A DNA stretch of 64,000 nucleotides from Achromobacter sp. AONIH1 (lineage in GTDB: Bacteria > Pseudomonadota > Gammaproteobacteria > Burkholderiales > Burkholderiaceae_B), in the NCBI RefSeq assembly GCF_002902905.1, contig NZ_CP026124.1, forward strand, positions 4,340,001 through 4,404,000, read 5' to 3'. Below are positions 34,397 through 53,377 of the stretch, piece by piece (the stretch's first letter is position 1; every line of letters begins with the position of its first letter). The notes beneath the pieces are model-generated. The model ran no database searches. It worked only from the letters and a program-made list of their open reading frames with translations, and was not told where the DNA came from. The translations under genes were made by a program, and so were the position numbers.

Positions 34397-35070
34397 CGGA
34401 TGGTTGACTCGAAGGGGTGGATGGCCACCGGCCGTGGCCAGAGCGCGTAGGCGCGCAGCTGGCCGCTGGCGGTCAGCCTGGCCAGCAAGCCGTCGCTGGG
34501 ATAGCGCATGCCGCGCAGATGTTCCAGCAGCTTGCGGGCGCCGCGCTGGGTCACCAGATAGCAACTGGCGCCGCCACAGGACCAGGCCTCGTAGACCGAC
34601 AGGGCGCCAGCCCGGCGAACGGGCGTGTCCCGCTCGGGATTGAAGGCGGGCCGGATCGAGGCCAGCGTCTCGTCGTTGAGATAATGCAGGTAGACTAGGT
34701 CGCCATCGCCAGGAAGCCCGCGCAGCAGCGTCCACAGATCCAGCGAGGGCGGCAGCACGAGGTCGTCTTCGCACACCAGTCCATAGCGCCGGTCGGACTG
34801 GCACAGCATGCGCCAGACGTGGGCATGGGACAGCGCGCAGCCCACTTCCGCGTGCGACATGGGGCCGGACAGTCCTTCATTCTGCGGATGCAGCTCGCCG
34901 GCGCCTCGCATGGCGTCGAGGTCGAGATCCGCGCCTTCCACCGCGTCGACGAAGGTCGCCGGCCAGCCCAGGCGGCCGAATTGCCTTTCCATATGCCGGC
35001 GGCGCGCACCGCTGCGCGGCAGGCTGATGCAATAGACGCCGCAGGGCAGCCCCAAATGGCCCGCCATCAT
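34393..35070 (-). CDS. Glycosyltransferase family 25-like protein
   Basis: 225 residues. N-terminus GVYCISLPRSGARRRHMERQFGRLGWPATFVDAVEG is the typical GT25 (LPS galactosyltransferase-like) opening; the VGCALSHAHVWRML motif and acidic metal site YGLVCEDDLVLP follow, then GGASCYLVTQRGARKLLEHL. It probably adds a hexose from a nucleotide sugar to the cluster product. Overlaps both neighbours by four bases (ATGA). Confidence 0.82.
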   Translation of the reverse strand: MMAGHLGLPCGVYCISLPRSGARRRHMERQFGRLGWPATFVDAVEGADLDLDAMRGAGELHPQNEGLSGPMSHAEVGCALSHAHVWRMLCQSDRRYGLVCEDDLVLPPSLDLWTLLRGLPGDGDLVYLHYLNDETLASIRPAFNPERDTPVRRAGALSVYEAWSCGGASCYLVTQRGARKLLEHLRGMRYPSDGLLARLTASGQLRAYALWPRPVAIHPFESTIR

Positions 35071-36905: not shown

Positions 36906-39900
36906 CGGGACCCTCGTAGATGCGTGGATGGCTGCGGGCGACGTCGCCGGCGGTGACGCTCTGGGCCACCAGCGAATCGATGTAGGCCTGCAGGCCGGCA
37001 TTGGCCCGCAGCATGGAGTTGAAGACCGAATTGACCCAGGTCAGGCAGTCAAGCTGGCATTTGTCGATCAAGGCGCCGAAATTGGAAGGCAGCGGATTGG
37101 CGGCCAGCGCCGTGATGATGGCTTGCAGGTCTGTCGCGACTTGTTGCCTGGAGGTGGCGTCCAGGCCCTGCTGCGCCTGCAAGGCCGTCAGCAGTGCCTG
37201 GGTCTGGGCGCTGATCTGAGCCACCGGAATGGAGGTTTCGGTGGCGGCCTCGCCCACGCCCTTGATGCGGCTCCATATCTGGTAGACCAGCGCGATCGGC
37301 GCCGAGAACAGGCTTTGCAGATAGACGGCGTCCAGCAGCCGTCCGGACATGCGGGTCAGGTTGTAGAGGCGCTTGGCGACCTTGCCCAGGTTGTACTTGG
37401 CCTTGCCCGGCGTGCCGAACTTCTTCACTTCCAGCGCCAGCTGCGCCAGGTAGTACGCGCGCAGGTCGGCGCCGATCGCGGCGTACAGGCTCGCGACCAG
37501 CGATTCCTGGCGGGTGTCCAGGTAGATCTCCTGGAGGAAGGCGTCCTGGGCGCCGTCCATGGTGGTGATGTTGCCCACCGGATCCTGCCAGGTCGGGTCG
37601 AGCACGTTGCTGGTGTTCATCACGATCTGCTGAGACGGGTTCGAGAAGATCCAGTCGAACTTGATCCAGCCCGGATTGCTGCTGGCGTCGGCCCAGGCGA
37701 TGGTGGCGGACTGCCCGGTGTCCGTGCGCGTGCCCGTGATCTGGCCGGCCGTGATCTGGGCCGGAGTCCAGGCGATGGGCGCGCCCTTGGGGCCGACGTC
37801 GCTGCTGCCCGTGGCCTGGAATGGATAGGGGTAGATGCCGAACTTCAGCTCGACCAGCTGCGCCAGGATGCCGGGGACATTGGGCGTCGTCATCCCCCGG
37901 CTGCGCACGATCGTGCCCAGCGTGGCCTGGGCCTGGGCCAGCGTGGCGGCGTTGATGTTGACCCGTTCGGTGAAGTCCAGATCGCCCGGATAGAGCTGGA
38001 AAGTGTCCTGGGCGGTGGAACCGGACATGGCCAGGGCGGTCTGCACGCCCGCGGGCACGGGCGAGCCATTGCCGCCGACGGCCACCACCGCCGTCACGCT
38101 GGAGGCCAGCGGCAGCGAGCTGCCGTTGAAGTCGATCATCGCCACGTTGGGACCAAACACGGCGTTGGCGCTGTCGCGCACGAACCAGGTGCCCAGGCAG
38201 TTGATTGTGGCGGCCCTGACCCAGGCGCGCGTGGTCACGCCGTTGTAGGGCAGGCTTTGCTGGGTCAGCAGGGCGCCGACCTGGTCCGGTCCCCAGCCGG
38301 CGATCGCGGTCGGCGCCGGGGACAAGGCCAGCGCGGCGCTGGGCAGGTAGATCTCGCCGCCGGTCGTGCCCGAGGCGCTGGGCAGCGCGTAGGAGCCGGA
38401 CGGCCCGGGCATGGCGCTGGCGATGGCGGGCAGGGGCGAGGGCAGGGCGCTGACCAGCGCGGGCGTGCCGGCAAAATTGCCCTGGGGATAGAGCGCCGCG
38501 TCGGCTTCGTTCACCATCGCGCTGGCGCCCAGGGCGGCGCTGGCGGTCGCGGTGCCGGTCTGCCGCCAGCGCCGCGCGCCCGTGTACAGATCGAAGGCCG
38601 ACAGATTGCCCGCGCCGTCCTGCACCATCAGCGTCGTGCCCCACAGCGTCGGCGTGGCCGAGAGCGGCTGCGACAAGGTCACGGACCAGCACTGCCACCA
38701 GGTGCCGGGCAGGTCGATGAAGGTCCAGGCATACACCGCCAGCTGGCCCGAGCGCGCGGGCACGACGAGCCGGTCGCCCACCAGTAGCACTTTGGAGAAA
38801 TCGATGCCCGTGATGCCGGGGGGGACCACATTGGCGGCGACGGCCTTGGTGGCGGTATCCACCACGTCGAAGCTGTCGCCCTGGCCATTGAGCAGCGCCT
38901 GTCCGGATCCGGGGCTGGCCAGCAGGGTGACGGCGGCGGGCCGCGCGAGCGTCCAGCTGGAGCCGTCGGCGTTGAAGCCGTAGAGCGTGCTGCCGGCCGC
39001 GGCCAACGGCAGGCCGGCGGCGAGCGTGGCGCCGCACGCGGAGAAGTCGGTGCTGGTGCGCGCGCTCCACTTGATGGCGGGTTGCGAACCCAGCGTCAGC
39101 GCATAGACGCCCATGCTGGATACCGCGTACAGCGTGGCGCCATCGCTGCCCAGCAGGGTGGCGGTCACCTTCGATTGCGAGGCGGCGTTCATGAAGGTGA
39201 GCGCGGACTGGACCCCGGGCGTGGCGGGGGTGGTCATGTCCACCGAGACCAGGTTTCCCTGGCCGGTGCAGAACCACACCGTGTTGCCGGTGGCGACCGG
39301 CGTCGCGTCCACCGGGCCGCTGACGATGGGCGCGCTGTAGGTCCACAGGTCCTGGCCCTGGTAGGTATCGTAGGCATGCAGCGCGGACATCTGCGCGCCG
39401 CTTTCGCCGAACATCGCCAGGCGGCCGTATCCCAGCGGTGGCGCGGTCACCGGAGATTGCACCAGCGGAGCCATGCCCGGGAGCACGCTGCCGTCGACCG
39501 TCTGATAGAAGTTCAGCAGCGTGCCGACGGTCGGGATCGCGATGCCGCCGGGGGCTGGCGGTGGCGGCGGCAGTTCCAGCAGCGGGTACAGCGCCTGTAC
39601 GTAGTTCATCGCGCTGACCGAGGCGGATGCCGGATCGCTGGCCGCCAGGGCCTGGGCGCCCGACAGGCTGGAGGATCCCTCGAAATCGAGCAGTCCGGCA
39701 TATGCCACGCCCAACTCATGCATCAACGATGCCGCCAGCGCGATGGTGCCGGACGCGGAATCCAGATACACCTGCTGCCAGCAGGCGTCCAGGACCTGGG
39801 CGGTGTCGGTCGTGGTGGTGGAATTGACGATCTGCATGCAGATGCCGTCCATCATCTGCACCGACAGCGGCTTGGTCAGGTCAAAAGTGATGGTCAACGT

Positions 39901-40092
39901 GCCGATCCGGGCGAGCACGGCGGCGTAGTTGCCATTGACGGTGGCCGGCGACGTGCCGGCGCCGAACAGGGCCTGCAAGGCGGGCGAGGCGGGCAAGGTC
40001 GTGGCCGAGCCCAGCGCGTCGGTCAGCAAGGCCGCCGCGGCATTCAGCACGGCTTGCTGCCGCGTAGTCCCACCGATGAATGCGATTGGCAC
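36892..40092 (-). CDS. PQQ-type beta-propeller protein of unknown function
   Basis: 1066 residues, no signal peptide. Residues 1-180 are mostly helical with PPPPPAP linker; about 190-470 form a beta-propeller of PQQ-like repeats (SGPVDATPVATGNTVWFCTGQGNLVSV, GGTT-type blades with ALHAYDTYQGQDLWTY). A Ser/Thr/Ala-rich middle follows, and the last 250 residues are helical with basic patches (EVKKFGTPGKAKYNLGKVAKRLYNLTRMSGRLLDAVYLQ). The blades are clearly paralogous to those of the neighbouring PLD fusion (VDATPV..WF.T.QGNL.SV in both). No catalytic motif recognised. Possibly an assembly platform for the cluster enzymes. Confidence 0.7.
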   Translation of the reverse strand: MPIAFIGGTTRQQAVLNAAAALLTDALGSATTLPASPALQALFGAGTSPATVNGNYAAVLARIGTLTITFDLTKPLSVQMMDGICMQIVNSTTTTDTAQVLDACWQQVYLDSASGTIALAASLMHELGVAYAGLLDFEGSSSLSGAQALAASDPASASVSAMNYVQALYPLLELPPPPPAPGGIAIPTVGTLLNFYQTVDGSVLPGMAPLVQSPVTAPPLGYGRLAMFGESGAQMSALHAYDTYQGQDLWTYSAPIVSGPVDATPVATGNTVWFCTGQGNLVSVDMTTPATPGVQSALTFMNAASQSKVTATLLGSDGATLYAVSSMGVYALTLGSQPAIKWSARTSTDFSACGATLAAGLPLAAAGSTLYGFNADGSSWTLARPAAVTLLASPGSGQALLNGQGDSFDVVDTATKAVAANVVPPGITGIDFSKVLLVGDRLVVPARSGQLAVYAWTFIDLPGTWWQCWSVTLSQPLSATPTLWGTTLMVQDGAGNLSAFDLYTGARRWRQTGTATASAALGASAMVNEADAALYPQGNFAGTPALVSALPSPLPAIASAMPGPSGSYALPSASGTTGGEIYLPSAALALSPAPTAIAGWGPDQVGALLTQQSLPYNGVTTRAWVRAATINCLGTWFVRDSANAVFGPNVAMIDFNGSSLPLASSVTAVVAVGGNGSPVPAGVQTALAMSGSTAQDTFQLYPGDLDFTERVNINAATLAQAQATLGTIVRSRGMTTPNVPGILAQLVELKFGIYPYPFQATGSSDVGPKGAPIAWTPAQITAGQITGTRTDTGQSATIAWADASSNPGWIKFDWIFSNPSQQIVMNTSNVLDPTWQDPVGNITTMDGAQDAFLQEIYLDTRQESLVASLYAAIGADLRAYYLAQLALEVKKFGTPGKAKYNLGKVAKRLYNLTRMSGRLLDAVYLQSLFSAPIALVYQIWSRIKGVGEAATETSIPVAQISAQTQALLTALQAQQGLDATSRQQVATDLQAIITALAANPLPSNFGALIDKCQLDCLTWVNSVFNSMLRANAGLQAYIDSLVAQSVTAGDVARSHPRIYEGPDDWS

Positions 40093-40116: not shown

Positions 40117-42924
40117 TCATAGGAATTGGGAGGGGTCGACAAAGGTCGTCAGGAACGACCAGGTGTAGCTGACCGGCTTCTGGGGCAGCGCGCTGTAGCG
40201 CAGCGGCAGCACGCCAACGCTGTTCGTCGTGGTTGTCGCATAGCTGTTGGCGTCGTTCCACCAGGCCGAGGGCGTCGTCATGCCCCAGTGCTGGAACAGG
40301 CGCTGGCGGATGCCCAGGGCGGTCGCGGAATCATTGATGAAGACGCTCATTTCGCCGTCCATGCGCAGGCTGCGGGGCGAGAAATTGGCGCTGCCCACCA
40401 CCGCGACGCGGTCATCGAACAGGGCGAGCTTGGAATGGACGTAGATGCCGCGGTAGTTGGCCGGCTGGCCCTGGAGCGCCTTGCCCGTGTCGGACGGCGG
40501 TGTGGCGAAGTAGCGCGCCGGGGAGCAGAAACAGACCTGCGGTTGCGTCGCGCTGTCGTGGATGTTCCAGACCTCGTGTATCCATACCCGGCGCGTTGTC
40601 CCGCCTTTGGTGAAGGTCACGGTGGTGTATTCGATGCCGCGCGGATCGAAGTTCAGCGAGGTGGTGTCCTGACTCGTGATGATGTCGCCGGCCTGCAGCG
40701 CGTAGTAGTCCCAGTCCTGCGAAGCGAGCTTCAGCGCGGCATAGGCATAGCGGATCAGTTTCAACTGTCCCTGTTCGATTGTGAAGTCGTCGCGGTACTC
40801 GCTCACGGTCGGATGAGGCACCATGACGATGACGCGGAAGCTGGCCGGCTGGGAGATCAGCCTGGCCGCCAGCGCCGCCACGATCTCGGAGGACGTGAAG
40901 GTGAAGTTCTCGAAGTAGATGTAGGACGTGGCCTTGTTGATGTTGACGATCAGCTGATCCAGGATTTGGTGCACGTCCGTCAGCAGCGCCTGGAGCTTGG
41001 AGGCCGAACCGCTCAAGTCCATCCGTTCGTTGCAGGTGATGGCCACTTGCGCGGGCACCTGCGGGGTCGAGGGCAGCGGCGAGACATACGGCGGCGGGGT
41101 GCCGGCCGGGCCGATGATGGAGTTGCGCGCGATCATCCAGTTGGCCACCTTGACATAGGTATTGCCGGACGGCGCGGGCTTGCTGTTGGCCTTGGACCAG
41201 CGGCGGTCGAATTCGGCTTCGATCAGATCGACGGCGGGGCCGGTCAGGGCCAGGCCGGTATCGTGCCAGCTGGCGCCGTCGTAGTTGCCGCTCTGGTCCA
41301 GCATGGTGTGGGCCTTGCTGTCGTAGTACGAGGGCGTGATCGTATTAAAGCCGGATACCAGGGCGATGCGCGTGCCGTTGACGCTGGCGATCACGATCTT
41401 CTGGTGGTTCGAGCCGAGTTCGGCAGGCAGGGGATACCAGTTCGGCCATTGCGCCTGGTAGTTTTCCAGGTAGACGGACACATTCGATGCCCCCTTGAGA
41501 CCCAGCGCGGTCTGGGCGTTCAGGCGATGGTCGCCCTTGAATGCGCCGTTGGTATCGAACAGCTTCTGGAAGAGCACCGCGCCCAGCGTCGTGGCGATCT
41601 GTGTGTTGGCCCAGTTGCCGATGTCGGTCATCGCATACGCGATGGATGTGTTCCACATCATGACGTAGGCGTTGTGGCCGGCGCTGCCGATGGCCTTGAT
41701 CAGGCCCTCGAACGAGACATCGGCGGGCAGGCTGGCCGGCGTGGCGAAGGACCCGTTGAGCACCGCGATCAAGACGTTGCGCATCGTCGGGAAGTACTCT
41801 TCGCCGTCGAGCAGGAAAGTCACGCTGGCGCTGTTCGGTCGCTGGATCACTTCCATGGCGGTCATCGCGGCCGAGGAAGCGCCGCTGGCCAGCACGGCCG
41901 CGCCGGACAGCACCGTGTTTTGCGACTGCAGATCGTAGGTGTAGAGCTTGCCGTCCGTCCCTATGCCGGCGACCAGCCCGCCAATCCGCACGGGTGGCGA
42001 TATGAAGCTGGAGAGACTGGTCATGTGCCACGCCAGGGTCGGGTCCAGCGTGCCGTCGGGATCGACACTGACCGTATTGAGCGTGAGCGTGCCATTGGTC
42101 GCGAACGACAGCAGGCTGTGGCCGAGTTCTCGCGTCCACGGCACCGCGCCCGCGCTGCTGGACAGGGTGAAGCGGCCCAGGCTCTGTTCATTTACGGTAT
42201 CAAGCAGCACGTATGCGCCATTCACGCTACCCATCAGCAGGCGGTCCTGGTCCAACGGGATCAGCACGCCGATGGCGGCTTCGGCTTCGATGGCCTTGGG
42301 CGCTTGTATGCCGTTGGGCGCCAGTGTCACCTCATACAGCGTCGACCCCGAAGCCACGAACAGCTGGTTGCCAAGCAGCGCGGGAGCCACGACCGTCAGG
42401 TCCACCCCGCCCAGGGTGGACCACAGCACCGTTGCCGTCGTGCCGGATACGGCCGCGCCGAACAGACCCTTGGCGGTGACCAGCACCAGCGTGCGATGGT
42501 CTCCCGTCGACAGCAGGGCCGACACCTTGCCCGGCGCCGTGCTGCCGCAGACATAGACAGGCGTGCCCAGCACGGGCGACGCGCTTTGCGGGCTGCTGAC
42601 GCTGATCAGGTTGCCCTGGCTGGTGGCGAACCACAGGACGCCGTCCATGACCACCGGCGTGGCATCCACGCTGCCGCTCACCGATACGGTGTTGGCCCAG
42701 CCGTCGGCGACCGGCGAAACGGCGGGGTCGTAAGCGTGCAGCAGCGTCGTCGACTGGGTGGTGCTTTCCCCGGCGTAGAGTATGCCGTTCCAGGCGAGTC
42801 CGGGCGCGGACAGGTATCCGCGCGACAGTGTGACCGTGCCCAGGACGGCGCCGGTGGCGCTGTCGGCGAACGCCAGGTTGCCCCGGTTGTCGCCGATGGC
42901 CAGAACATTGATGGGGGCCGTCAT
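40117..42924 (-). CDS. PQQ-type beta-propeller fused to a phospholipase D domain
   Basis: 935 residues. Residues 1-360 carry propeller blades (INVLAIGDNRGNLAFADSATGAVLGTV, GSVDATPVVMDGVLWFATSQGNLISV). From about 390 a phospholipase D superfamily domain: first HKD-like motif SNHQKIVIASVNGT near 506, second VHSKLALFDDRVAVVGSANFSPRS near 829. The second has the complete H-x-K-x4-D; in the first the Asp is Ser. PLD-fold enzymes cleave or exchange phosphodiesters through a phospho-histidine. In this cluster it may attach or transfer a phospholipid-like group. ATGA overlap with the FAAL gene. Confidence 0.85.
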   Translation of the reverse strand: MTAPINVLAIGDNRGNLAFADSATGAVLGTVTLSRGYLSAPGLAWNGILYAGESTTQSTTLLHAYDPAVSPVADGWANTVSVSGSVDATPVVMDGVLWFATSQGNLISVSSPQSASPVLGTPVYVCGSTAPGKVSALLSTGDHRTLVLVTAKGLFGAAVSGTTATVLWSTLGGVDLTVVAPALLGNQLFVASGSTLYEVTLAPNGIQAPKAIEAEAAIGVLIPLDQDRLLMGSVNGAYVLLDTVNEQSLGRFTLSSSAGAVPWTRELGHSLLSFATNGTLTLNTVSVDPDGTLDPTLAWHMTSLSSFISPPVRIGGLVAGIGTDGKLYTYDLQSQNTVLSGAAVLASGASSAAMTAMEVIQRPNSASVTFLLDGEEYFPTMRNVLIAVLNGSFATPASLPADVSFEGLIKAIGSAGHNAYVMMWNTSIAYAMTDIGNWANTQIATTLGAVLFQKLFDTNGAFKGDHRLNAQTALGLKGASNVSVYLENYQAQWPNWYPLPAELGSNHQKIVIASVNGTRIALVSGFNTITPSYYDSKAHTMLDQSGNYDGASWHDTGLALTGPAVDLIEAEFDRRWSKANSKPAPSGNTYVKVANWMIARNSIIGPAGTPPPYVSPLPSTPQVPAQVAITCNERMDLSGSASKLQALLTDVHQILDQLIVNINKATSYIYFENFTFTSSEIVAALAARLISQPASFRVIVMVPHPTVSEYRDDFTIEQGQLKLIRYAYAALKLASQDWDYYALQAGDIITSQDTTSLNFDPRGIEYTTVTFTKGGTTRRVWIHEVWNIHDSATQPQVCFCSPARYFATPPSDTGKALQGQPANYRGIYVHSKLALFDDRVAVVGSANFSPRSLRMDGEMSVFINDSATALGIRQRLFQHWGMTTPSAWWNDANSYATTTTNSVGVLPLRYSALPQKPVSYTWSFLTTFVDPSQFL

Positions 42925-44951
42925 GCCTCGGCTCCCGTCGCCAGGGCGGCGTCGGCCAGCTCGGCGGCCCCCAACCGCGCCGGGTCCACCAGGAACTCGG
43001 ACAGCATCGTGCAATTGGGATAGTCCCAGAACAAGGTGGCCTCCAGATCGACGCGGGATTGATCCCCGATGTGCATGGCGAGGTTGACCGCGGCGAACGA
43101 ATCCAGCCCGTACACGCCGAAATGGGTGTCCGGATTGATGTCCGCCTTCTGCATGTTCAGTTCCGCGGCCAGCAGCGCGGCCAGCCAGTCGCGGATCTGC
43201 GCCAGGGCCGTCTCGCGCGGCAGGCTGGCGAGGGCCGGCATGGCAGGCAGGGGCGGGCGGGTGCGCGACGTTTCCTGGCAGTGCGCGCGCCAGGACGACA
43301 GCGGGCTCAGGCGTCCGGCCCGGTGCGCGGCCGCCACGGCGCTGCGCCGGATCTTGCCGCTGGGCGTGCGCGCCAGGCTGCGTTCGCGCACCAGCACGAC
43401 CTCGTCGACGGCGATGCCGTGCTGCTCGGCCAGCGCGCCGCGAACCCGTTCCAGCAGGCCCGGCATGTCGGGATGCCGGCGGGGGACTTCCAGCACCACC
43501 GCGATGCCGGCCTCGTCGTCGCCGAAGGCGGCCGCGCCCATCTGCGCCAGTGCCGGCTCCAGCGCCCGGCAGCTGGCTTCCATGTCCTCGGCGTGATGAT
43601 TGCGGCCGCGAACGATGACGATGGCCTTGCTGCGGCCCACCACATAGAGTTCGCCCTTGTAGACGAAGCCCAGGTCGCCCGTTCTGACGTACTGGGCCGG
43701 ATCGTCCGGCAACTGTGCGTGGAAGGCGGAATCCTCGTCGCCCACGGGTTCGGCGACGCTGTCGCCGGCCACCCATATCTCGCCCACGTCATAGGGCGAC
43801 GCCTCGCTGCCATCCTGCTTGATGACGCGCACCGCCTGCAAGGGCGTGCCCAGTCCGACCAACCTGCGGTGTTCGCGGTCGGCTTTGGTCGTCAGCCGGA
43901 TCTGGCCGGCGGCCAGCGCGTTGCGGTCCACGTCCAGCAGGGACGGCTTGTGCAGATGGCTGCTGGCCGAAACGATCAGGGTCGCCTCAGCCAGGCCGTA
44001 GCAGCTGGTGAAGGACGCCATGCGGAAGCCAAAGCGGCGGAACCGGGTGGCGAACTGCCGCAGCGTGGCCGGGTTGACGGTTTCCGCACCATTGAAGGCG
44101 ACCAGCCAGCGGCTCAGGTCCAGGTTCGCGCGCTCGATCTCGTCGTCGGAGGCCGCCAGGCAGGACTCGTAGGCGAAGTTGGGGCCGCCCGAGGTGGTCG
44201 CGCCGGTCATCGTGATCGCGCGCAGCCAGTTCAGCGGCGAGCGCAGGAAAGTGCGCGGCGCCATCAGCGTCGTGCGAAAGCCGGCGTACAGCGGCTGCAC
44301 GATGCCGCCGATCAGGCCCATGTCGTGATAGGGCGGCAGCCAGACCAGTCCGCGCTGCTTGGAGGTATGCACGAACGCGCGACGGATCAGCTCGCTGTTG
44401 TGCAACAGGTTGCGATGGGAAATCCGCACGCCATGCGGCACGCCGACCGTGCCGGAACTGTATTGATGGATCGCGATGGCGTCCGGCCGGTTGCCGGACG
44501 GGCCGGCATCGGGCGGGCCGGCCAGGCAATCCTCCACCGCCAGCCAGCGCAGCGATGCCGGCTGCAGTGCCGGATCCCGCGTGGCCAGCGTCGCCCGGGT
44601 GGCGATGCCCCAGGTGGCCGCGCTGCCGGCGGCCACGTGCTCCAGCCTGGCGATGGCGTTCTTCTCGGTCGGCGGCTGCGTGGGCAGCGCCACCGCGCCG
44701 GCGCGCAGGATGCCGTAGAACGCGCGGACGAAATCCAGGCCCGGCGCGCAGGCCAGGATCACCGGCGCACCCGGCGCCACGCCAGCGGCGCGCAAGGCGG
44801 CGGCGACCCGGCTGGCCGCGAGGGCCAGGGTGGCGTAGCTGTCGGTGTCGACGATGTCGAGCCGGCTGTCCATGAAGGCGAATGCGGGCAGATCGGGTTG
44901 GTTCTCTGCGCGCCAGTCCAGCAGGGCGTCCAGCGACTGTGTTGGGTTCAT
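42921..44951 (-). CDS. Fatty acyl-AMP ligase fused to acyl carrier protein
   Basis: 676 residues. Adenylating domain of the FAAL type: P-loop-like YSSGTVGVPHGVRISHRN (the usual Lys of TxGxPKG is His), LPPYHDMGLIGGIVQPLYAGF, SCYGLAEATL, RTGDLGFVYKGELYVVGRSKAIVIVRGRNHHAEDME and the final lysine in ARTPSGKIRRS. The C-terminal 85 residues are a carrier domain with phosphopantetheine serine S618 in YGLDSFAAVN. It should activate a fatty acid as acyl-AMP and load it on its own carrier domain. No PKS or NRPS gene is near, so the acyl group may go straight to an amine or hydroxyl of the product. Confidence 0.92.
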   Translation of the reverse strand: MNPTQSLDALLDWRAENQPDLPAFAFMDSRLDIVDTDSYATLALAASRVAAALRAAGVAPGAPVILACAPGLDFVRAFYGILRAGAVALPTQPPTEKNAIARLEHVAAGSAATWGIATRATLATRDPALQPASLRWLAVEDCLAGPPDAGPSGNRPDAIAIHQYSSGTVGVPHGVRISHRNLLHNSELIRRAFVHTSKQRGLVWLPPYHDMGLIGGIVQPLYAGFRTTLMAPRTFLRSPLNWLRAITMTGATTSGGPNFAYESCLAASDDEIERANLDLSRWLVAFNGAETVNPATLRQFATRFRRFGFRMASFTSCYGLAEATLIVSASSHLHKPSLLDVDRNALAAGQIRLTTKADREHRRLVGLGTPLQAVRVIKQDGSEASPYDVGEIWVAGDSVAEPVGDEDSAFHAQLPDDPAQYVRTGDLGFVYKGELYVVGRSKAIVIVRGRNHHAEDMEASCRALEPALAQMGAAAFGDDEAGIAVVLEVPRRHPDMPGLLERVRGALAEQHGIAVDEVVLVRERSLARTPSGKIRRSAVAAAHRAGRLSPLSSWRAHCQETSRTRPPLPAMPALASLPRETALAQIRDWLAALLAAELNMQKADINPDTHFGVYGLDSFAAVNLAMHIGDQSRVDLEATLFWDYPNCTMLSEFLVDPARLGAAELADAALATGAEA

Positions 44952-45751
44952 TGCCGCGTCCCGGTGCTGGCTCGCTCGAAGAACGGCGTTTCGCGCGGGT
45001 CGAGCCAGTAGTTGTAGGTAAAGGCAGGCGCCAGGCATTCGACGAAGTGGGCCCAGCCCATGGGCAAGAGCAGCAGGTCGCCGGGGTACAGATCCAGGGC
45101 CACGGTGGGCACCGGATGGCCGGCCTCGCGGGGATCAAGCGGACTGCGCAGGAACGCGCTGCCCATCACCGATTCGGCCTGGATGTCCGGCAGCGCGCTG
45201 GGCGGATGCAGCCAGAAGCGCTTGTGGCCGATGACGCACAGCACGAAATTGTCCTGCGGGTCGGTGTGCAGGTTGGAGCACGAGCCCGCCGCGCCCATCC
45301 AGATGCAGGGCAGGTGCACCTCGTGCGGACGCAGGAAGGCCGGCCGCAGCAAGCCCAGCGCGTTGCGGAACTCCAGCGGCACCCGCAGGTTCCGGAATCG
45401 GACATAGAGATCCTGGCGCACCGTCTCGCCCAGGACAGCGGCGGCGAGATAGTCGTCCAGGCTGATCCGCGCGTCATTGGCGCTGCTGTCGATGGTGTTG
45501 TAGATGTGCGAGGGCTTCCAGCGCGGGTCGAGCATGAGCGCGCCCGCCCTGGCCCGCACGTCCTCGAAGGTGATGCCGTCCAGCGGGGTGCCGGCCAGGT
45601 AGCCGCGCACCACGACGGGCCGGGCCGCGCCGTTGAAGTGCGCGAGAATGTCCTCGTCCGGCGTATGCGCGCGCTCCAGGATCTCGACCCTGTCGAAGGG
45701 GCCCCGCCAGGTCCGCATCAGCCGCTGGATCTTGGCCGGATAGGCGCTCAT
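44948..45751 (-). CDS. JmjC/cupin_8-type Fe(II)/2-oxoglutarate hydroxylase
   Basis: 267 residues. The facial triad is H162-x-D164 (SNLHTDPQDNF) and H235 (MGWAHFVE), with K177 (GHKRFW) as likely 2-oxoglutarate contact. VVVRGYLAGTPLD near the N-terminus and YPGDLLLLPMGWAH are family signatures of FIH-like and RiPP-tailoring oxygenases that hydroxylate amino-acid side chains, often Asp or Asn. The gene lies directly after the acidic Asp-repeat protein gene with an ATGA overlap, so that protein is an attractive substrate. Confidence 0.85.
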   Translation of the reverse strand: MSAYPAKIQRLMRTWRGPFDRVEILERAHTPDEDILAHFNGAARPVVVRGYLAGTPLDGITFEDVRARAGALMLDPRWKPSHIYNTIDSSANDARISLDDYLAAAVLGETVRQDLYVRFRNLRVPLEFRNALGLLRPAFLRPHEVHLPCIWMGAAGSCSNLHTDPQDNFVLCVIGHKRFWLHPPSALPDIQAESVMGSAFLRSPLDPREAGHPVPTVALDLYPGDLLLLPMGWAHFVECLAPAFTYNYWLDPRETPFFERASTGTRQ

Positions 45752-46083
45752 GGACGTTCGTCCCCGTCGAGTCCCTCCGCGCCGGTCACGAAGTCGATGC
45801 CGGGTTCGGTGCGTTCCAGATCCTCCTCCAGGAACATTTCGAGCGTGACATCGACGTCGACATCGACGTCGACCTCGGTCTCGATGTCCGCCTCGACATC
45901 GGCGTCCACGTCGACGTCCACGTTGGGATCGTCGGGAATCTCGACATCGTCGCCGATGTCCAGCTCCTCTGGATTGTTCAGGCTGGCATCGTCCGAGGCA
46001 TTGTCGAATTCTTCGGATTGTTCGTCGAAATCGTCTTCCAGGTCCTGGCAGGTACCGCCTTCCAACAGTCGAGTGTTCGCCAT
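45748..46083 (-). CDS. Very acidic Asp/Val-repeat protein, possible precursor or scaffold
   Basis: 111 residues, 43 of them Asp or Glu and only three Arg, no Lys or His; predicted pI extremely low. Residues 55-79 are an almost pure (D/E)-(V/A/I/T) alternation (NVDVDVDADVEADIE..), coded by a degenerate GTCGAC/GTCGAT hexamer repeat. One Cys (C12). No signal peptide, no known domain. Coding is supported by the stop overlap with the JmjC gene and its place 42 bases after the borosin gene. Candidate roles: substrate of the JmjC hydroxylase, metal or cation buffer, or precursor peptide. Confidence 0.75.
   Translation of the reverse strand: MANTRLLEGGTCQDLEDDFDEQSEEFDNASDDASLNNPEELDIGDDVEIPDDPNVDVDVDADVEADIETEVDVDVDVDVTLEMFLEEDLERTEPGIDFVTGAEGLDGDERP
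45847..45921 (-). repeat. In-frame hexanucleotide repeat (Asp-Val codons)
   Basis: About 75 bases made of degenerate six-base units, GACGTC/GACATC/GATGTC types, encoding alternating acidic and hydrophobic residues 55-79 of the acidic protein. Unit changes keep the frame, so length may vary among strains. Confidence 0.8.
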
Positions 46084-46125: not shown

Positions 46126-49100
46126 TCATTGGCATTTCTTTTCCCACATTTCGATGCTGTCGTCGGTCGCGAGCCGCTGGTAGCCGCTCACCCGGGCGCG
46201 CCACAGCAACAGTCCGCCCACGCCCAGGGCGCCGATGCCCAGGCCGATCAGCAGGTAGCCCCACCACGGGAAGCCGGGCGAGGGCGGGTTGGGGGTGTTG
46301 CCCGCGGGCGTGCCATACCAGTTGATCGCGGTCGGCGCGGGCTTGTTGGCGTAGAAGATTCCCTTGAAGGCGCGCTGCTGCTTGCGCGGATCGAGGTAGA
46401 ACGAGATGGCGCCGTTGTTGTAGCTGCTGTCGCCGCTGACGTTCTCCCCCGACCAGTACAGCGTGTTGCCGGTGGTCTGGTACTTCGGATTCTGCAGCGT
46501 CGTGGTGGACCCGTTCACGGTGATCTGCACGGTGAAGGCGCTGGCGGTCCCCGAGAGCGTCAGCGTCGGCCCGCCCGCGGTCAGACTGCCGTTGCCGGCG
46601 TCGACCAGGAACGTGCTGTACGTACCCAGCCATTGCTGGGCGTCGTTGCTGAGCTGGCTGGAGTCCCATTGGTGCTGGGCGCTGTTGACGGTCTGCGTGC
46701 CGGTGAAGGCCGTGACGTACTGCGGCGGGGTGTGCGATCCCTGGGTCACGTACTTGAATACGGCGTTCAGCTTCAAGCCGCTGGGCGTGGTGCCGCTCAA
46801 CTGACCCGTGAAGAAGCTGTAGGTCACTTTCTCCGAGCCGTAGGTCACCTGGATGCTATTGGGATCGCCGCCGATGCTCAGGACCTGTGCAGGCTGCTGG
46901 TCCAGCGTGGTGTTGTAGTTGCCGACGAAGTTGGCCGGGGAATTGGCCGAGGCGATGCCCTGGAAGTTCGGCGACGTGGGCTTGGTGGCGCCGTTGGCCC
47001 AGGTAACCCCGACAAAGCAGGCGGCATTGGTCAGCGCGTTCACCGATAGCGACAGCTGGCCGTTCGGGATCTGCGAGGGGCCGTTGCTCCAGGTCAGCTG
47101 GCGGTTGGAGAACTGGGCGGTGAAGGACTGCGCGCCAAGCCAGGCCGTGCAGGTCGTGGAACCGCTGGCCGGCGCCGTGAAACCCAGCTGATAGAACGGC
47201 TGCCATACGTTCGCGCCCTTGACGGACACCACGAGCTGGGTCGCGTACTGGCCCGCGAAGCCCGTCGCGCTGCTGGCCACCGTGTTGCCGGTGATGGGGC
47301 GTCCGGCAATGTTGCCGCTCACGGTCAGGGCGCCGGTGGTGCTGGCGTTCAGCGCGAAGCTGAGCTGTCCTCCCGACCACGTGATGGTCGGGTTGACGAA
47401 GGTGGTGCCGCTGATCTCCTGGCCGTCGATGTAGAGTGCCGGAGACGGATTGGCCGTGGACGGCAGAAAGACCGCGACCCCAGGCCCCGCCTGTTGATTG
47501 TCCGTGTACACGGTGGTGTACTCGCCCGTCCAGACAGACAGCGGATTGCTGGGCAGCGGTTGCAGCGTGGCCGTGAAGTTGTTCGACGCGGGCTTGCCCT
47601 GGCTGTCCTGCCAGAGCATGCCAGACACCGATTGCGGCGTGGAGGCGCCCGGATTGGCGAAGGTCAGCGAGCCATTGCAGGGATTGCCGTCCTTCTGGCT
47701 GAAGGTCAGCTGGCCGCCGGAGAACGACACCTTGAACAGCGGCGAGGCATTGAGATAGACCGTGCCGCTGGTCACGGTGCTGGTGTCCACGCCGTCTCCC
47801 GGCGCGCCGGCCATCACGAACAAGGCCTGGGGCTGGTTGCCGCTGGTCGCGTAGACGCCGTTCCACATCAGCAGCAGCCAGGCCTGGGTGCTGGCGACCG
47901 CGTCGGACACATCGGACAGGGCCAGGCCCTGGTAATTCTGCGACAGCCAGTCCTCGACCGGCTGCCAGTTCTTGGGACTGGCCTTGACGGCCGTGTTCAG
48001 CAGTTGCATCCATTGGTTGGCGACGGCGGGCTTGGTCTCCAGGTCGATCACGAACTGCTCGCCGGGGGAGATGCTGACGGCGGCGCCGCGCGCGGCCCGC
48101 TGGGTGCGCGCGGTGCGGCGGCTGGCCAGCTGCTTGCGTTCTTCCGCGCTGAGACCGGGAAACGAGGCCAGGGCGTGCTCCGGATTGGCCTCGAAGCGCC
48201 GGCGCAGTTCGGGCTGTTCGGACAGGGCCAGCAGGAAGCGGGCCGCTGCCGTGTCGGTCTGGAAGTGATAGTCGGCCGGCGGGCGGAAGTCCTTGAGCGC
48301 CGCGATGGCGCGCATTTCGCGCGGGCCGTAGCGGTCCAGCGGGCGCGACAGGCGCGGCTTGCCGACATGCTGGCCTGGCTGGATCAGGCCGACTTCGCGG
48401 GCAAAGTCCACGTCCACGGCGCGCGCCTGCGCCGGCGGAACATAGAACGTGGAGATGCCGGTGATCAGGGCGTGAACCTCCGGATTCAGGAGCTCGTCCA
48501 GTGTGTAGCGCTCGATTACCGGCGGCAGGGTCGGATAGCGGGACGCGATGTAGTGCACGATCTTGTGATCGGGCTTGTAGTAGCCGCGCAGATACTCGAC
48601 CAGATAGTCGAAGCGGCGATTGTGAAAGCCGCGGCGGCGAAATCCCATCTCGGCGATCAGGCCGACCTGCCACAGGACCACGTGCGAGCCGGGGTCGATG
48701 GCGCGCCGGCGCAACAGCATGTCGGTGGCCTCGAAGGTCTGCATGCCGGGGTAGGCGGGGTCGATCCCCAGGTCGGCGCAGAGCCAGTCCAGCGCCGAGA
48801 CGCCGGGCCGCAACTGCGCGCGATGCCCTTCGCGCCGCGCGATCGCCACGGCGCGGTGCGTCGACAGCACGAAGATGCCCGGGTGGCCATAGAACACCGC
48901 GGCCACGCGCCTGCCACGCCGCACGTGGTACAGCATGGCCTCGGTCATCTGCATGTAGGTGTGATAGCGCGGCTTGCGGTCGTCGTAGAGCGCGAATAGA
49001 TCGATGGCGTCGGGACGCCGGTCGCGCAGCCAGACCTGTGTCGCGGGATCCGCCACGCAGAAGACCACGTGGTCGGCGTCGTCGATGTATTGCTCGGCGT

Positions 49101-49275
49101 CGCGGGTAAAGCCCATGACGCCGATGCCGGATCCGATGATGGTGAGCTCGCCGGTCGCCGTCGCCGGTTCGCGGGCGGCGGTGTCGCTCAATGAGGGAAT
49201 GTCGGCATAGATCTGGTGGGCCAGTTCCATCCACGCGGAATCGGCTTCGCTGCGGGTAGGATATCCAAGGGACAT
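46126..49275 (-). CDS. Borosin-type alpha-N-methyltransferase with C-terminal hydrophobic core-like tail
   Basis: 1049 residues. Residues 42-300 are a tetrapyrrole-methylase-fold SAM methyltransferase of the borosin (OphMA) type: LTIIGSGIGVMGFT, FCVADPATQVWL, VFYGHPGIFVLSTHRAVAIA, LRPGVSALDWLCADLGID and ITGISTFYVPP. Y97, R103, Y107 and Y129 fall at the spacing of the OphMA catalytic Y66, R72, Y76 and Y98. Residues 335-390 (AARFLLALSEQPELRRRFEANP..) look like the helical borosin substrate-binding region. Residues 471-988 contain five repeats starting (W/F)-x-G-x-Y-x-T at 471, 582, 673, 783 and 882. The tail from 1001 is GFPWWGYLLIGLGIG.. then Leu-rich, RAR and a charged end. It may be a self-methylated core or a membrane anchor. 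GGGAG precedes the ATG. Confidence 0.88.
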   Translation of the reverse strand: MSLGYPTRSEADSAWMELAHQIYADIPSLSDTAAREPATATGELTIIGSGIGVMGFTRDAEQYIDDADHVVFCVADPATQVWLRDRRPDAIDLFALYDDRKPRYHTYMQMTEAMLYHVRRGRRVAAVFYGHPGIFVLSTHRAVAIARREGHRAQLRPGVSALDWLCADLGIDPAYPGMQTFEATDMLLRRRAIDPGSHVVLWQVGLIAEMGFRRRGFHNRRFDYLVEYLRGYYKPDHKIVHYIASRYPTLPPVIERYTLDELLNPEVHALITGISTFYVPPAQARAVDVDFAREVGLIQPGQHVGKPRLSRPLDRYGPREMRAIAALKDFRPPADYHFQTDTAAARFLLALSEQPELRRRFEANPEHALASFPGLSAEERKQLASRRTARTQRAARGAAVSISPGEQFVIDLETKPAVANQWMQLLNTAVKASPKNWQPVEDWLSQNYQGLALSDVSDAVASTQAWLLLMWNGVYATSGNQPQALFVMAGAPGDGVDTSTVTSGTVYLNASPLFKVSFSGGQLTFSQKDGNPCNGSLTFANPGASTPQSVSGMLWQDSQGKPASNNFTATLQPLPSNPLSVWTGEYTTVYTDNQQAGPGVAVFLPSTANPSPALYIDGQEISGTTFVNPTITWSGGQLSFALNASTTGALTVSGNIAGRPITGNTVASSATGFAGQYATQLVVSVKGANVWQPFYQLGFTAPASGSTTCTAWLGAQSFTAQFSNRQLTWSNGPSQIPNGQLSLSVNALTNAACFVGVTWANGATKPTSPNFQGIASANSPANFVGNYNTTLDQQPAQVLSIGGDPNSIQVTYGSEKVTYSFFTGQLSGTTPSGLKLNAVFKYVTQGSHTPPQYVTAFTGTQTVNSAQHQWDSSQLSNDAQQWLGTYSTFLVDAGNGSLTAGGPTLTLSGTASAFTVQITVNGSTTTLQNPKYQTTGNTLYWSGENVSGDSSYNNGAISFYLDPRKQQRAFKGIFYANKPAPTAINWYGTPAGNTPNPPSPGFPWWGYLLIGLGIGALGVGGLLLWRARVSGYQRLATDDSIEMWEKKCQ

Positions 49276-49290: not shown

Positions 49291-50247
49291 CTAGGGTTGG
49301 GTTTCGTTCAGGCGTAGCGCGGCGCGATGGGTATCGTTCAACGAGGCGGCCAATGCGTCGCCAACCTCCTCGGGCAGGTCTTCCATCAGCGCCAGAATGG
49401 CCGACACTTCCTGCGCGCAGATATCCAGGATGTCGTCGGGCGTGCAGACCCAGGTGCACAGGTTCGGCTGGCCGGCGGACGAGTCGGCGTCATGGTCGAC
49501 GATGTCGTTCAGGTACTGGGCCAGCCGGGACAGGTGCGCGGTGGCCTGAAGCACGGTCGTGCGCAGCGGCGTCGGGCAGGGGTCCAGCAGGTTGCGGTAC
49601 AGGATCTCGTCGTACCAGATCGACTTCATCTGCAGGATTTCCTGGTATTCGGCCAGGTTGGCCTGACCCGAACCCATTCCCTCCAGCAGGATGCCGGGCG
49701 GAATCCGCTCGCAGATCCTGAGCGTGGTCAACGCGGCCGCTTCTCCCGCATGGCGATGCAGGCGCTCGATGCCCGCCAGCATGATCCAGGTGCCTGCCAG
49801 CATGGCATAGGCGCGGCGCTGGCCGTCGTCGAGCTGAGGGTGGCTCTGGGCCAGCGCGCCGACCAGGGTGGTGCGCTTGCCCTTATAGGTGTGGTGGTTG
49901 TCCAGCGCGTCGTCCATGACCCGTGGGCCGGCATAGACCAGCATGGCAGCCGCGAGGCGGCGCGTGTCGGCGTCGCCGCTCAGTCCCAACGGCATGGCCA
50001 GATGGCTGGCGCACCAGCTCGACCATCCCAGCCAGCCGACGTACCCGCCCAGATGCTGGACGAAGGCGGCGGCGCCGGCGCGTGTGGCATCGGCCGAGAA
50101 CGCCTGGCGCGTGCGCGCCACTTCCACCTGGAACTGGGCCTCGACGCGCAGGCGGAAATCCCGCAATCCCGCGCCGTGACGCTCGGCATGCGTGGCCGCG
50201 CGCGTGCGCACCGTCGCGTCCAGCAGATCAATGGGCAGCGTGATCAT
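49291..50247 (-). CDS. Isoprenoid-synthase-fold protein (prenyl/terpene synthase-like)
   Basis: 318 residues, all helical. Two metal-type motifs face the usual positions: DDALDN at 112-117 (followed by HHTYKGKRTT, like the DDxxD..R/K of prenyl synthases) and NDIVDHDAD at 247-255. It may condense or cyclise an isoprenyl diphosphate, or act as a head-to-head synthase. It starts inside the last 20 bases of the upstream glycosyltransferase gene and ends 15 bases before the borosin-type gene. Sequence is divergent, so substrate is open. Confidence 0.7.
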   Translation of the reverse strand: MITLPIDLLDATVRTRAATHAERHGAGLRDFRLRVEAQFQVEVARTRQAFSADATRAGAAAFVQHLGGYVGWLGWSSWCASHLAMPLGLSGDADTRRLAAAMLVYAGPRVMDDALDNHHTYKGKRTTLVGALAQSHPQLDDGQRRAYAMLAGTWIMLAGIERLHRHAGEAAALTTLRICERIPPGILLEGMGSGQANLAEYQEILQMKSIWYDEILYRNLLDPCPTPLRTTVLQATAHLSRLAQYLNDIVDHDADSSAGQPNLCTWVCTPDDILDICAQEVSAILALMEDLPEEVGDALAASLNDTHRAALRLNETQP

Positions 50248-51916
50248 TGTTGCTCCACAGAGAGGGGGCCGCCAGGCCGAGCAGCCTGAGGAAATTGGAA
50301 CGCGACAGCAGGTCCCTTTCGTGCGGCGAGTTGTGATCCTGCAAGCGCGGCCGCCGATACGGCCAGGAATAGCGGTCGTCCAGCCGTTCGAGCGCGCGTT
50401 GCACGCCGTGCGGCAGGGCCTGCCAAGCCTGATCCAGCAACGCCACCGTGTTGGCGGCGCCGAGGCCACCGGATTGCGCCAGCGTGGACGCGGCGTGCGC
50501 CAGTCCGGCGAAGGGCAGGCCGGCGCGGGCTTCGGGATCCAGCAAGCGAGTGACGGCGCGGGCCGCCTGCATCACGCTTTGTGGCCCGGTCTGGAGGTTG
50601 AACCAGAACGTCCAGGGGGAGGGCGCCCAGAAGCGCGGGTTGTGTTCCAGGCACAGGGCGATGGAGGGCGTGCCTGTCTCGGCCGCCAAGTGGGCGGTAT
50701 ACGTGTCGATGCCGAGCAGCAGGTCGGACCTGGCCAGTTCGCCGGCGACGTAGCCCATGGCGTTGTCCGCGGTCAGCATCAGGCCGTCGGGATGGGCAAG
50801 CTCGGCGTGGCCACGGCCGTTCAGGCGATAGCTGACCAGGCGGGCAATGTCCTGCGCATGCGAGCGGCACTCCGCCGTCAGGCCGGGCAGCACCGTGCAG
50901 CGCACCGGACGCCGTCCGGGCAGCGCGCGCGCCATGGCGGCAACGCATTCGGCCCAGTCGTGGGCGGTGTGCGGCGAGCGCTTGGACGTGAACGGACTGA
51001 TCAACATTCGGAAAGGCGCGCCGCGCGTCCAGGGCCGGCGGGCCGGCGAGGGCGCGGCCGTGGACAGCGGCGCATCGCCGCGCGGCAGGATGTGGCTGCC
51101 CATCCGATGCAGCGCACGGCTCAGGCAAGGATGATCCAGGTCCATGCCGCACCAGTGCATCTCCGATCGCTGTCCGTGACGGTGGATGGAGATCTCGCCC
51201 GAGCCGACCGAGATGTCCAGCACGTCGTGCCAGTCCTCGTAGGGCAGCATGGTGCGCAGTCCGTTGCGGCGCAGGAAGTTGCAGAAGACCATCAGCACCT
51301 GGCCGGCCACGGGATGGGCGTCGCGCAAGGCCGTAAGGCGATCGAACGCCGCCATGGGCTGACTGCCGAGATCGCCTGTCCGCCAGTCGCCCTGCAGGGT
51401 GCGCCAGATGGCCGGGCAGTACGAAAAGACGTGCATCGCATCCGCCGGAACGGCGAAGTGCCGCTCCAGCCGCTGCAAAAGCGGCCGCAGCTTGATCTCG
51501 TCGCCGATGCCCAGGCCCGGGCCGATGGCCACGACGATCGCGCGCGGGCGCATGCCGCGCAGCGGATCGGCAGGGGCATCGGTGCGGGGCCGGTCCACGC
51601 GCATCAATCCGGCATACAGGCCAAAGGACTCGCGTATGTAGTGCCCGCAGGCGTGGATCGCGTCCTGCCCCGGCGCGAGCGCCACCGCCCGCAGCTGCCG
51701 CGCCAGGTCGGCGGCCTGCGCGCCATGCGGCGCAGCCAGCGAGCCCCGTAAGCCATCCAGCCGGTCGGCCAGCATGCCGAGATTGCGCAGGCAGGCGTCG
51801 ACGAACGGGGTGTTGGCGTGGCTGAGCGGGCGGCCGACCAGTGTCTCGACGGTCACGCGCGCGATATGCGCCGCATGGATGGCATCGCAATGCGGCGCGG
51901 CCGTGGCGGTGCGCAT
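50228..51916 (-). CDS. Glycosyltransferase (GT9/heptosyltransferase-like)
   Basis: 562 residues. The C-terminal half has the GT-B donor site of heptosyltransferases: ISPFTSKRSPHTAHDWAECVAAMARAL and SDLLLGIDTYTAHLAAETGTPSIAL (the DTG-x-x-H-x-A-A motif appears as DTYTAHLAAE). The N-terminal half includes GPGLGIGDEIKLRPLLQRLERHF, again as in GT9. The first 120 and last 90 residues are extensions. Likely transfers a sugar to the cluster product. Lies 5 bases after the first gene and overlaps the next by 20. Confidence 0.75.
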   Translation of the reverse strand: MRTATAAPHCDAIHAAHIARVTVETLVGRPLSHANTPFVDACLRNLGMLADRLDGLRGSLAAPHGAQAADLARQLRAVALAPGQDAIHACGHYIRESFGLYAGLMRVDRPRTDAPADPLRGMRPRAIVVAIGPGLGIGDEIKLRPLLQRLERHFAVPADAMHVFSYCPAIWRTLQGDWRTGDLGSQPMAAFDRLTALRDAHPVAGQVLMVFCNFLRRNGLRTMLPYEDWHDVLDISVGSGEISIHRHGQRSEMHWCGMDLDHPCLSRALHRMGSHILPRGDAPLSTAAPSPARRPWTRGAPFRMLISPFTSKRSPHTAHDWAECVAAMARALPGRRPVRCTVLPGLTAECRSHAQDIARLVSYRLNGRGHAELAHPDGLMLTADNAMGYVAGELARSDLLLGIDTYTAHLAAETGTPSIALCLEHNPRFWAPSPWTFWFNLQTGPQSVMQAARAVTRLLDPEARAGLPFAGLAHAASTLAQSGGLGAANTVALLDQAWQALPHGVQRALERLDDRYSWPYRRPRLQDHNSPHERDLLSRSNFLRLLGLAAPSLWSNNDHAAH

Positions 51917-51921: not shown

Positions 51922-52632
51922 TCAGGATCCGAGGATGGCCTGCAGTGTTTCGCCGTCGATGATGACGGGCATGTACACGACGTGACGTGATTTGCCCGCT
52001 GGTGGCGGATGCGAGGGCGCGGCGGCCTCGGCCTGGCGAGTGTCCGGGTTGACGAAATAGAGCGCTTTCGCGTCCACGGCGGCTTCCAGCGCGGGGCCGC
52101 CGTGCCCTTGGGATTGCGCCTGTCCGGCCTGGGGGCTGATGGGTTCCGGGATGTCTCCGGGCGCGGTGGCGCGCGCGACCGGCGCATTCCCGTCGACATC
52201 CAGGTTGCGGTCGATGACGAGCTGCTCGGCCACCCAGGTGGCGCGGCTGGCGCGCAGGACGGCATGCACGACGATGTGCTCCTGGCGTTCCTGCCAGTCC
52301 GGTAGCGCGGTCCAGTACAGATCCAGGGCGAAGGACATGCGACGGCTGCCGTCGCGCAGGATCTTGTTGCCGATCTGGCGCTGGTTGATTTCGATGTCGC
52401 AGGCGTTCTTGAACTGGTTCTGCAGCGTCTGTACGGCATCTTCCAGCGGCGTCGGCTGGCCGAAATAGTAGATTTCGTCCAGGTTCAGCATCTGTTTGAA
52501 CCCGTTCCAGTCGCGCAACTCAATGGCGCGCGTCCACCCGCGCATCAAGCCGGACAGCCAGCGATCATCCTGTTCCGAGGCGGCATCGACATTCAAGAGG
52601 CCCACTGTCGATTGCGAATTTGTATCGTTCAT
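51922..52632 (-). CDS. NTF2-like protein, first gene of the borosin-type cluster
   Basis: 236 residues from MNDTNSQSTVG. Residues 30-150 resemble an NTF2/SnoaL-like domain (WTRAIELRDWNGFKQMLNLDEIYYFGQPTPLEDAV..LQNQFKN). A Pro/Gln/Gly-rich linker follows, then SRHVVYMPVIIDGETLQAIL. The ATG at 52632 has AAGAG seven bases before it; ATGs at 52638 and further upstream are alternatives. It opens the operon behind a long AT-rich region. Function unknown. Confidence 0.6.
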   Translation of the reverse strand: MNDTNSQSTVGLLNVDAASEQDDRWLSGLMRGWTRAIELRDWNGFKQMLNLDEIYYFGQPTPLEDAVQTLQNQFKNACDIEINQRQIGNKILRDGSRRMSFALDLYWTALPDWQERQEHIVVHAVLRASRATWVAEQLVIDRNLDVDGNAPVARATAPGDIPEPISPQAGQAQSQGHGGPALEAAVDAKALYFVNPDTRQAEAAAPSHPPPAGKSRHVVYMPVIIDGETLQAILGS

Positions 52633-53377
52633 CGGCATGCTCTTTTGAAAGCGGGAGACTTCTGGAATCGTCACGGGCACGTCGGGCGCAATAATGGACA
52701 GCGTTCGGTTTTATATACCGAAGCAATCGAATAATGGCCTGAATTTGCGACGAGGCACCGATAATGCTCGCAAGAAAAATATTTAGCAAGAGAAAATAAT
52801 CGGCGGCTAGGGAATGCCCTGAATCACGGAAAGGCGACTGTAGACATTTATATGTTTTCTGTATTTCGGATTTATTGCCGATTTATATCGGCCAGGCTTT
52901 GTCATGAGTGCAGCGCCGGGATGGCCCATTATTTGAGTCATGCATTCTTGCTGTCATGTGGCGGAAGAGCAGAGTGCGCTTCGGCGCGTTGACATTCCCG
53001 TGCAATGTCCCGGGCAGCAAGAGGAAACGCATGTCCCTCGGTCGTCGGCGGGCGGGCGCAATTATTGGCATATACATGCTTTGAAAATATAGGTCAGCCC
53101 GACGATTCGCAATCTGGCGAGTATATGCACGTACCGATACCTTGGCCGCATTGCGCCGCGAGGATGTGATCTTAGGAGTTTTCGATTTATGGATTTTCAA
53201 TGAATTGGAATGAAATCGGATATGCGGACGCGCGCCGAGATAATCGGGTTTCCGCATTCAGGCAGGCAAGGGGAGGTGGGAATACGCTGAGACCTGGCGC
53301 GTCGCGACGCTGATATGCGATGATGCCGTCCGCCCATTCACAGGGGCGCCCCAGGCTGTCAACCATTCGGAGAAAAC
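52633..53377. other. AT-rich regulatory gap upstream of the borosin-type cluster
   Basis: 745 bases without a supported gene, clearly more AT-rich than its surroundings, especially 52690-52900 and 53060-53240. It holds an inverted repeat TTCGGT-N7-ACCGAA (52704-52722) around TTTATAT, a good candidate operator or promoter for the leftward cluster about 75 bases away. A 124-codon minus frame (52883-53257) is very basic and has no recognisable domain, so I do not call it. The ribosome site CGGAGAAAAC of the rightward GST gene lies at the right end. Confidence 0.55.
52704..52722. promoter_or_regulatory. Inverted repeat before the cluster
   Basis: TTCGGT (52704-52709), seven bases TTTATAT and ACCGAA (52717-52722). 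On the minus strand the centre reads TATATAAA, usable as a -10 element for the cluster. Confidence 0.4.

Follow-up and report, generated by a model that had tools for sequence, protein, structure and literature searches.

A borosin-type methyltransferase with a probable membrane anchor and a proposed, separately encoded Asp/Val precursor in Achromobacter sp. AONIH1

The locus described here lies in a window of 64,000 nucleotides (the whole stretch of DNA that was analysed) from the genome of Achromobacter sp. AONIH1, and it raises the question of where a long bacterial borosin carries the core peptide that it methylates. In a preliminary description of the same DNA, an omphalotin-like core was placed at the C-terminus of a single-chain enzyme, here called P0001. 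Based on the comparison of this enzyme with its relatives, we consider it likely that P0001 is an anchored borosin with the enzyme and the binding domain in one chain, that its core is a separate 111-aa protein, that the neighbouring genes serve in tailoring and that this arrangement was split from a fused form. The enzyme family, the gene layout, the homology between the split gene and the fused tails and the sharing of the cluster with one other contig (L044) can be regarded as established at the level of sequence (Table 1).

Table 1. Genes of the cluster and parts of their products, in window positions.
Feature	Positions	Strand	Remarks
252-aa protein without family, probably the first cluster gene	51922..52680	-	L044 homologue 22.5%, E 5e-13
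Glycosyltransferase-9-like protein (weak)	50228..51916	-	E 0.0048, below cut-off; L044 homologue 34%
392-aa open reading frame, true start probably further in	49291..50469	-	L044 homologue 41%
Borosin-type alpha-N-methyltransferase P0001	46126..49275	-	1049 aa; PF00590 E 2e-12; OphMA E 4.8e-78
Methyltransferase domain (residues about 43-300), including Y97, R103, Y107 and Y129	48376..49149	-	OphMA match, alignment, model
Clasp / borosin-binding helices, residues about 318-396	48088..48324	-	OphMA alignment to residue 383; helices in model
Second helical bundle, residues about 404-471	47863..48066	-	Structure model; region aligned in relatives
Beta modules in tandem (residues about 473-990), at least partly with a small-barrel fold	46306..47859	-	
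Probable membrane anchor: hydrophobic segment GFPWW...LLLW (residues 1001-1025)	46201..46275	-	Hydropathy and flanks; internal in fused relatives
Proposed precursor with the split-off core, an acidic protein of 111 aa	45748..46083	-	Alignment with fused tails; free-standing homologues P0122-P0125
Proposed core: run of alternating acidic and other residues, 56-79 (DVDVDADVEADIETEVDVDVDVDV)	45847..45918	-	
Cupin_8/JmjC hydroxylase-like protein, HTD motif	44948..45751	-	L044 homologue 44%
Fatty-acyl-AMP-ligase-like (FAAL) protein with carrier-protein domain	42921..44954	-	L044 homologue 44%
PLD-domain protein, BamB/PQQ-like N-terminal part	40117..42957	-	Start chosen inside longer ORF; L044 homologue 30% over 1006 columns
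PQQ/beta-propeller protein	36892..40092	-	Partial L044 matches only
Carbamoyltransferase (NodU-like), start uncertain	35067..37001	-	
Cytochrome P450, start uncertain	32667..34211	-	L044 homologue 48%
333-aa protein	31669..32670	-	Sub-threshold ATP-grasp (RimK) match, E 0.023; L044 homologue 56%

The reading frame of P0001 begins with an ATG, has no internal stops and encodes 1049 aa on the minus strand. Residues 39-383, a stretch of 345 residues that comprises the methyltransferase and the clasp/binding domain, matched OphMA with an E-value of 4.8e-78, which is far better than chance would give, and the comparison with the SonM methyltransferase domain gave an E-value of 1.4e-42. A TP_methylase fold together with an OphMA-type sequence was found in P0001 by Pfam, the sequence match and Foldseek, in which only borosin methyltransferases were among the matches listed (best 50). 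The presence of the borosin residues Y97, R103, Y107 and Y129, as stated in the preliminary description, was confirmed; they are invariant across a 60-sequence alignment and correspond at a single constant offset of +24 to Y73, R79, Y83 and Y105 of the bacterial borosin KchMA, whose catalytic and SAM-site residues S136 and Q179 also have counterparts at this offset. P0001 is a bacterial borosin methyltransferase that carries the binding domain on its own chain; its expected activity would be backbone N-methylation. OphMA, a type I borosin, is about 400 aa long with the core at its C-terminus. Its length is given as 417 (PMC8429565), whereas P0001 extends for about 660 residues beyond the OphMA match and has its proposed core encoded by another gene. 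According to the structure model, an extra helical bundle (residues 404-471) precedes a beta region of ~520 residues (473-990); the earlier statement of about 600 residues of beta repeats was thus right about a long beta region, but overestimated its length.

The protein search with P0001, in which only the 7993 candidates sharing most words were scored, yielded at least 301 relatives, and the best 120 of 301 were listed. In P0002 (95%), P0003 (57%) and P0006, the chain ends soon after a hydrophobic segment, as it does in P0001. Seven others (P0004, P0005 and P0007-P0011) share the layout of P0001 and then continue in the same chain into an acidic tail that contains alternating runs of the Asp/Val type, the hydrophobic segment being internal and well ahead of this tail. 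The remaining listed relatives are mostly shorter, about 600-980 aa, and P0014 has 1049 aa.

The proposed extreme C-terminal motif, GFPWWGYLLIGLGIG, is present in P0001 at residues 1001-1015, but the chain runs on to residue 1049 and its final residues are WRARVSGYQRLATDDSIEMWEKKCQ. The motif opens the hydrophobic segment, which is followed by a charged tail; the hydropathy is 1.97 over 19 residues, there are no charges in the 20 residues before the segment and three positive and three negative ones in the 20 residues after it, and the charges nearest to it on the C-terminal side are two Arg. The last 50 residues have a low model confidence (block means 40-58). The segment is found at the same place in all 11 proteins P0001-P0011, which are P0001 and the ten nearest among the relatives listed. 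When P0001 and its listed relatives (121 proteins) were scanned for a 19-residue stretch with a hydropathy above 1.6, 17 proteins had one; in ten of them, P0001-P0006 and P0008-P0011, it is directly behind the beta region, while in the other seven the best stretch has another location (the N-terminus in one, various sites ahead of the C-terminal end in six). In P0007, the segment is present but below the cut-off. In the ten proteins, the 20 residues that follow the segment contain 2-5 positive charges and those that precede it 0-2, and acids are also behind it in six of the ten. The segment of P0001 is probably a membrane anchor, with flank charges that are ambiguous, and the protein may be inserted into the membrane through it. 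For a SAM enzyme without a signal peptide, a cytoplasmic location is expected. A Cys is found at residue 1048 of P0001 and, likewise, near the end of the enzyme chain in P0001-P0011.

The preliminary description called GFPWWGYLLIGLGIG similar to the start of the omphalotin core, and P0001 does contain the GFPW tetrapeptide and a run rich in Gly and aliphatic residues. As the core of a single-chain borosin, this sequence would reach the active site of the dimer partner across the beta region, and the C-terminal core of the long bacterial borosin KchMA provides a precedent (PMC11395268). We consider this extremely unlikely, since the hydrophobic segment is kept in P0001-P0011 whatever comes after it, its motif varies (GLPWWAW, GIPWWVW, GGFPWQA and GQGWILG), it is well before the acidic tail in the fused relatives, and a DV (Asp/Val) protein that matches this tail is encoded by the adjoining gene. 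Moreover, a type I core is hydrophobic and lies at the C-terminus close behind the clasp, and in P0001 about 600 residues lie between. Because the equivalents of GFPWWGYLLIGLGIG in the P0001 group (GLPWWAWLLIGG, GIPWWVWVVVG, GGFPWQAVLIAIG and GQGWILGVVLG) differ in sequence and yet keep the same character, the resemblance to the omphalotin core is best explained by a membrane-interface motif that looks similar by chance. The description of a single-chain borosin thus holds for the methyltransferase and the binding domain but is not supported for the core. Alternatively, the main substrate could be the DV protein, with the hydrophobic segment methylated as well or, instead of being in the membrane, packed on the enzyme. 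This would fit the ambiguous distribution of the flank charges and a weak likeness of the last domain of P0001 to the C-terminal GLPxWAW...GGLFLW element of the ~800-aa relatives (140-residue profile, E 9e-6). When the last 62 residues alone were compared with that element, 9 of 300 shuffles scored as high for P0001, making the similarity unconvincing; for the other ten proteins, the number ranged from 0 (P0009) to 139 (P0006), and P0003 gave no match. The hydropathy of 1.75-2.55 over 19 residues in ten of the 11 proteins is like that of a membrane span, and we regard the packed or additionally methylated segment as improbable.

The acidic tail leads to the gene that we propose as the precursor. 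It starts 42 bp downstream of the P0001 gene, with a separate ATG at 46083 (the P0001 stop is at 46126-46128), and a check by eye revealed no clear ribosome-binding site ahead of it. Its 111-aa product consists of 39% D+E and has 12 alternating acidic/other pairs in a row, whereas 20000 shuffles of its sequence gave 9 at best. Homologues that are likewise free-standing (P0122-P0125, four proteins of 105-112 aa) were found, and together with the 111-aa protein and the seven fused tails they were aligned in one frame. An invariant Cys column, an acidic stretch and the alternating run are common to the 111-aa protein and all seven tails; the DPNVD-like start of the run is kept only loosely among them, and the FVSG (FVxG) end is matched only by the tails of P0004 and P0005. 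This alignment argues for homology of the 111-aa gene to the fused tails, and its product would be the substrate of P0001. Close to where the DV part begins, the 111-aa protein has a Cys (residue 12) that does not vary in the alignment; this Cys and the one near the end of the enzyme chain might, for example, serve in a linkage or as acyl acceptors. In the 6.65-Mb genome of Achromobacter sp. AONIH1, the (DV)4 coding pattern has a single match, which is inside the 111-aa gene, but this rarity alone is weak evidence because the pattern occurs in three of 60 other genomes and a reversed control pattern in eight of 61. In these three genomes the (DV)4 runs occur without this enzyme, which would suit a DV protein that is not the substrate (e.g., a metal-binding or chaperone-like partner) and a methyltransferase that acts on another protein. 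Such a role is very unlikely in our opinion, as the DV part belongs to the enzyme chain in seven relatives, is fused in L044 within the same cluster and has a precedent in KchMA (PMC11395268).

In a midpoint-rooted tree of the methyltransferase domain, P0001-P0003 formed one group (100/99) with P0004 and P0005 as its sister (100/87), and all five were together at 100/98. P0002 and P0003 are probably split forms, as is suggested by the missing tail. The fused and the split labels need two changes each, a number that was as low in 41 and 45 of 500 shuffles of the labels (about 8-9%), so that the direction from fusion to fission is not fixed by the tree; fission on the way to P0001-P0003 would be its simplest reading.

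The cluster in the window has the order 252-aa, GT9-like, 392-aa, methyltransferase, DV, JmjC, FAAL, PLD, PQQ, carbamoyltransferase, P450 and 333-aa, with the ATG of the JmjC-like gene overlapping the stop of the 111-aa gene. On L044, a 16.7-kb contig from the same phylum, the DV part is fused to the methyltransferase, and the only other DV match has an E-value of 0.086. Ten of the 12 cluster genes have counterparts there, the methyltransferase and DV genes being counted and present as one gene, and among the genes compared the 333-aa protein has the top identity. The carbamoyltransferase had no match on this contig of only 16.7 kb. The order also differs: the 333-aa and P450 genes are at the other end, ahead of the 252-aa gene, and the PLD gene is ahead of the JmjC gene. 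The shared cluster is known from two genomes only, that of the window and that of L044. The 392-aa reading frame gave no Pfam match above the cut-off and no PDB match; its Asp-rich motifs DDALDNH and NDIVD (DDAIDNH at the first and ND..D at the second in the L044 homologue), read by eye only, suggest a divergent isoprenyl-diphosphate-synthase-like enzyme. At 36892-42957 (minus strand), two large propeller-like proteins adjoin that are 34% identical over 183 residues, one of them with a phospholipase-D motif. The region 54072-60240 (an AraC-type regulator, an MFS transporter and the following genes) aligns with one same-genus genome at 74% and the cluster does not, which makes the cluster look accessory. 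Among 36 same-genus genomes searched, no relative of the P0001 methyltransferase was found.

A wider survey covered 19 loci from named genomes with more distant relatives of the methyltransferase. A DV-repeat reading frame adjoins the relative in 15 of them, with a size of 94 aa in the two Pseudoalteromonas loci and of between about 600 and 1041 aa in the remaining 13. In the two Paenibacillus loci (L002 and L004), there is no DV reading frame beside the relative. By eye, the relative in L002 and L004 stands behind reading frames resembling an ABC transporter and other maturation genes. At L015 and L016, an upstream gene could not be seen because the available DNA starts just 649 and 327 bases before the match. 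The locus L013 contains, in addition to its DV reading frame, one of 986 aa with a long Asp-Gly repeat (4346-7306). None of the window's other cluster genes was found in the 19 loci by tblastn, and the 111-aa protein gave one weak match, on the opposite strand of L017 (E 6e-4).

The preliminary description took the known bacterial borosins to be mostly split, but long ones have been published: KchMA (WP_084224105.1) is a bacterial type III fused borosin methylated on residues 742-796 (PMC11395268). It resembles P0001 in being a long bacterial chain with a borosin methyltransferase, and eight of its nine pivotal residues are kept in P0001, the exception being Y70, which is F94 by offset from the published numbering. 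In type III cores, acidic residues alternate with others (same source), as they do in the run of the 111-aa protein. The difference is that the KchMA core is fused to the enzyme with no separate precursor gene (PMC11395268), whereas in the window the genes are separate and the core is proposed to be in one of its own. The term transmembrane is absent from the main text of that paper. A class 2 borosin has the methyltransferase and the binding domain in one protein and a separate core (Fig. 1 legend, PMC11395268); P0001 unites both domains, and the 111-aa gene, homologous to the fused tails, would encode the core on a separate protein. PruM and PmoM are named there as type VII/VIII split borosins, and a long methyltransferase with an adjoining DV-repeat protein is likewise found in L001 and L003 (Pseudoalteromonas) and L010 (Pseudomonas mosselii). 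Judging from the species names, L001 and L010 are probably PruM and PmoM; unlike P0001, the L001 protein (P0024) has no hydrophobic span at its C-terminus. In SonM/SonA (type IV split), the precursor is on a separate gene, as proposed for the window, but the binding domain is on the precursor rather than on the enzyme (PMC8429565). Most of the novelty first seen in P0001 is gone because the long bacterial KchMA and the split types had already been published (PMC11395268). In the literature searched, which was incomplete, there was no description of an anchored subgroup, a fused/split precursor pair or a shared tailoring cluster, and within that literature we consider new a subgroup with a probable membrane anchor, a fused/split pair of one precursor and a shared tailoring cluster.

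In the mechanism that we propose, P0001 would consist of the catalytic and borosin-binding domains in one chain, tandem beta modules and a probable membrane anchor, and, by homology, would work as a dimer whose enzyme chain bears the binding domain. As in class 2, the 111-aa core, being separate, would come into the channel from outside, and the backbone amides of the nonpolar residues in its alternating Asp/Val run would probably be methylated, which fits the preference of KchMA for mainly Ala, Val and Leu and some Asp (PMC11395268). The JmjC-like protein is a candidate hydroxylase for this peptide, acylation is suggested by the acyl-AMP ligase and its carrier domain, and the P450, the carbamoyltransferase and the ATP-grasp-like protein may act in its oxidation or other tailoring; we infer all of these tailoring steps. 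The layout most likely arose when a fused core tail split off behind the anchor. It is possible, if rather doubtful, that there is a whole line of anchored borosins in which the core has moved between the enzyme tail and a free gene and is beyond the span in the fused members, and whose product, formed at the membrane, would be an Asp/Val strand with N-methylation and perhaps hydroxylation and fatty acylation. If so, methylation would have to precede membrane insertion in the fused members, because the core is beyond the span from the active site.

These findings call for caution in that a hydrophobic C-terminal stretch of a borosin chain is not necessarily its core. A natural fused/split pair of one proposed precursor in a shared cluster points to the core without chemistry and offers a ready test system. 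Finally, the neighbours of the borosin enzyme include an acyl-AMP ligase, a JmjC-like hydroxylase, a P450 and a carbamoyltransferase, and from this combination an N-methyl peptide that is both lipidated and oxidised would be predicted.
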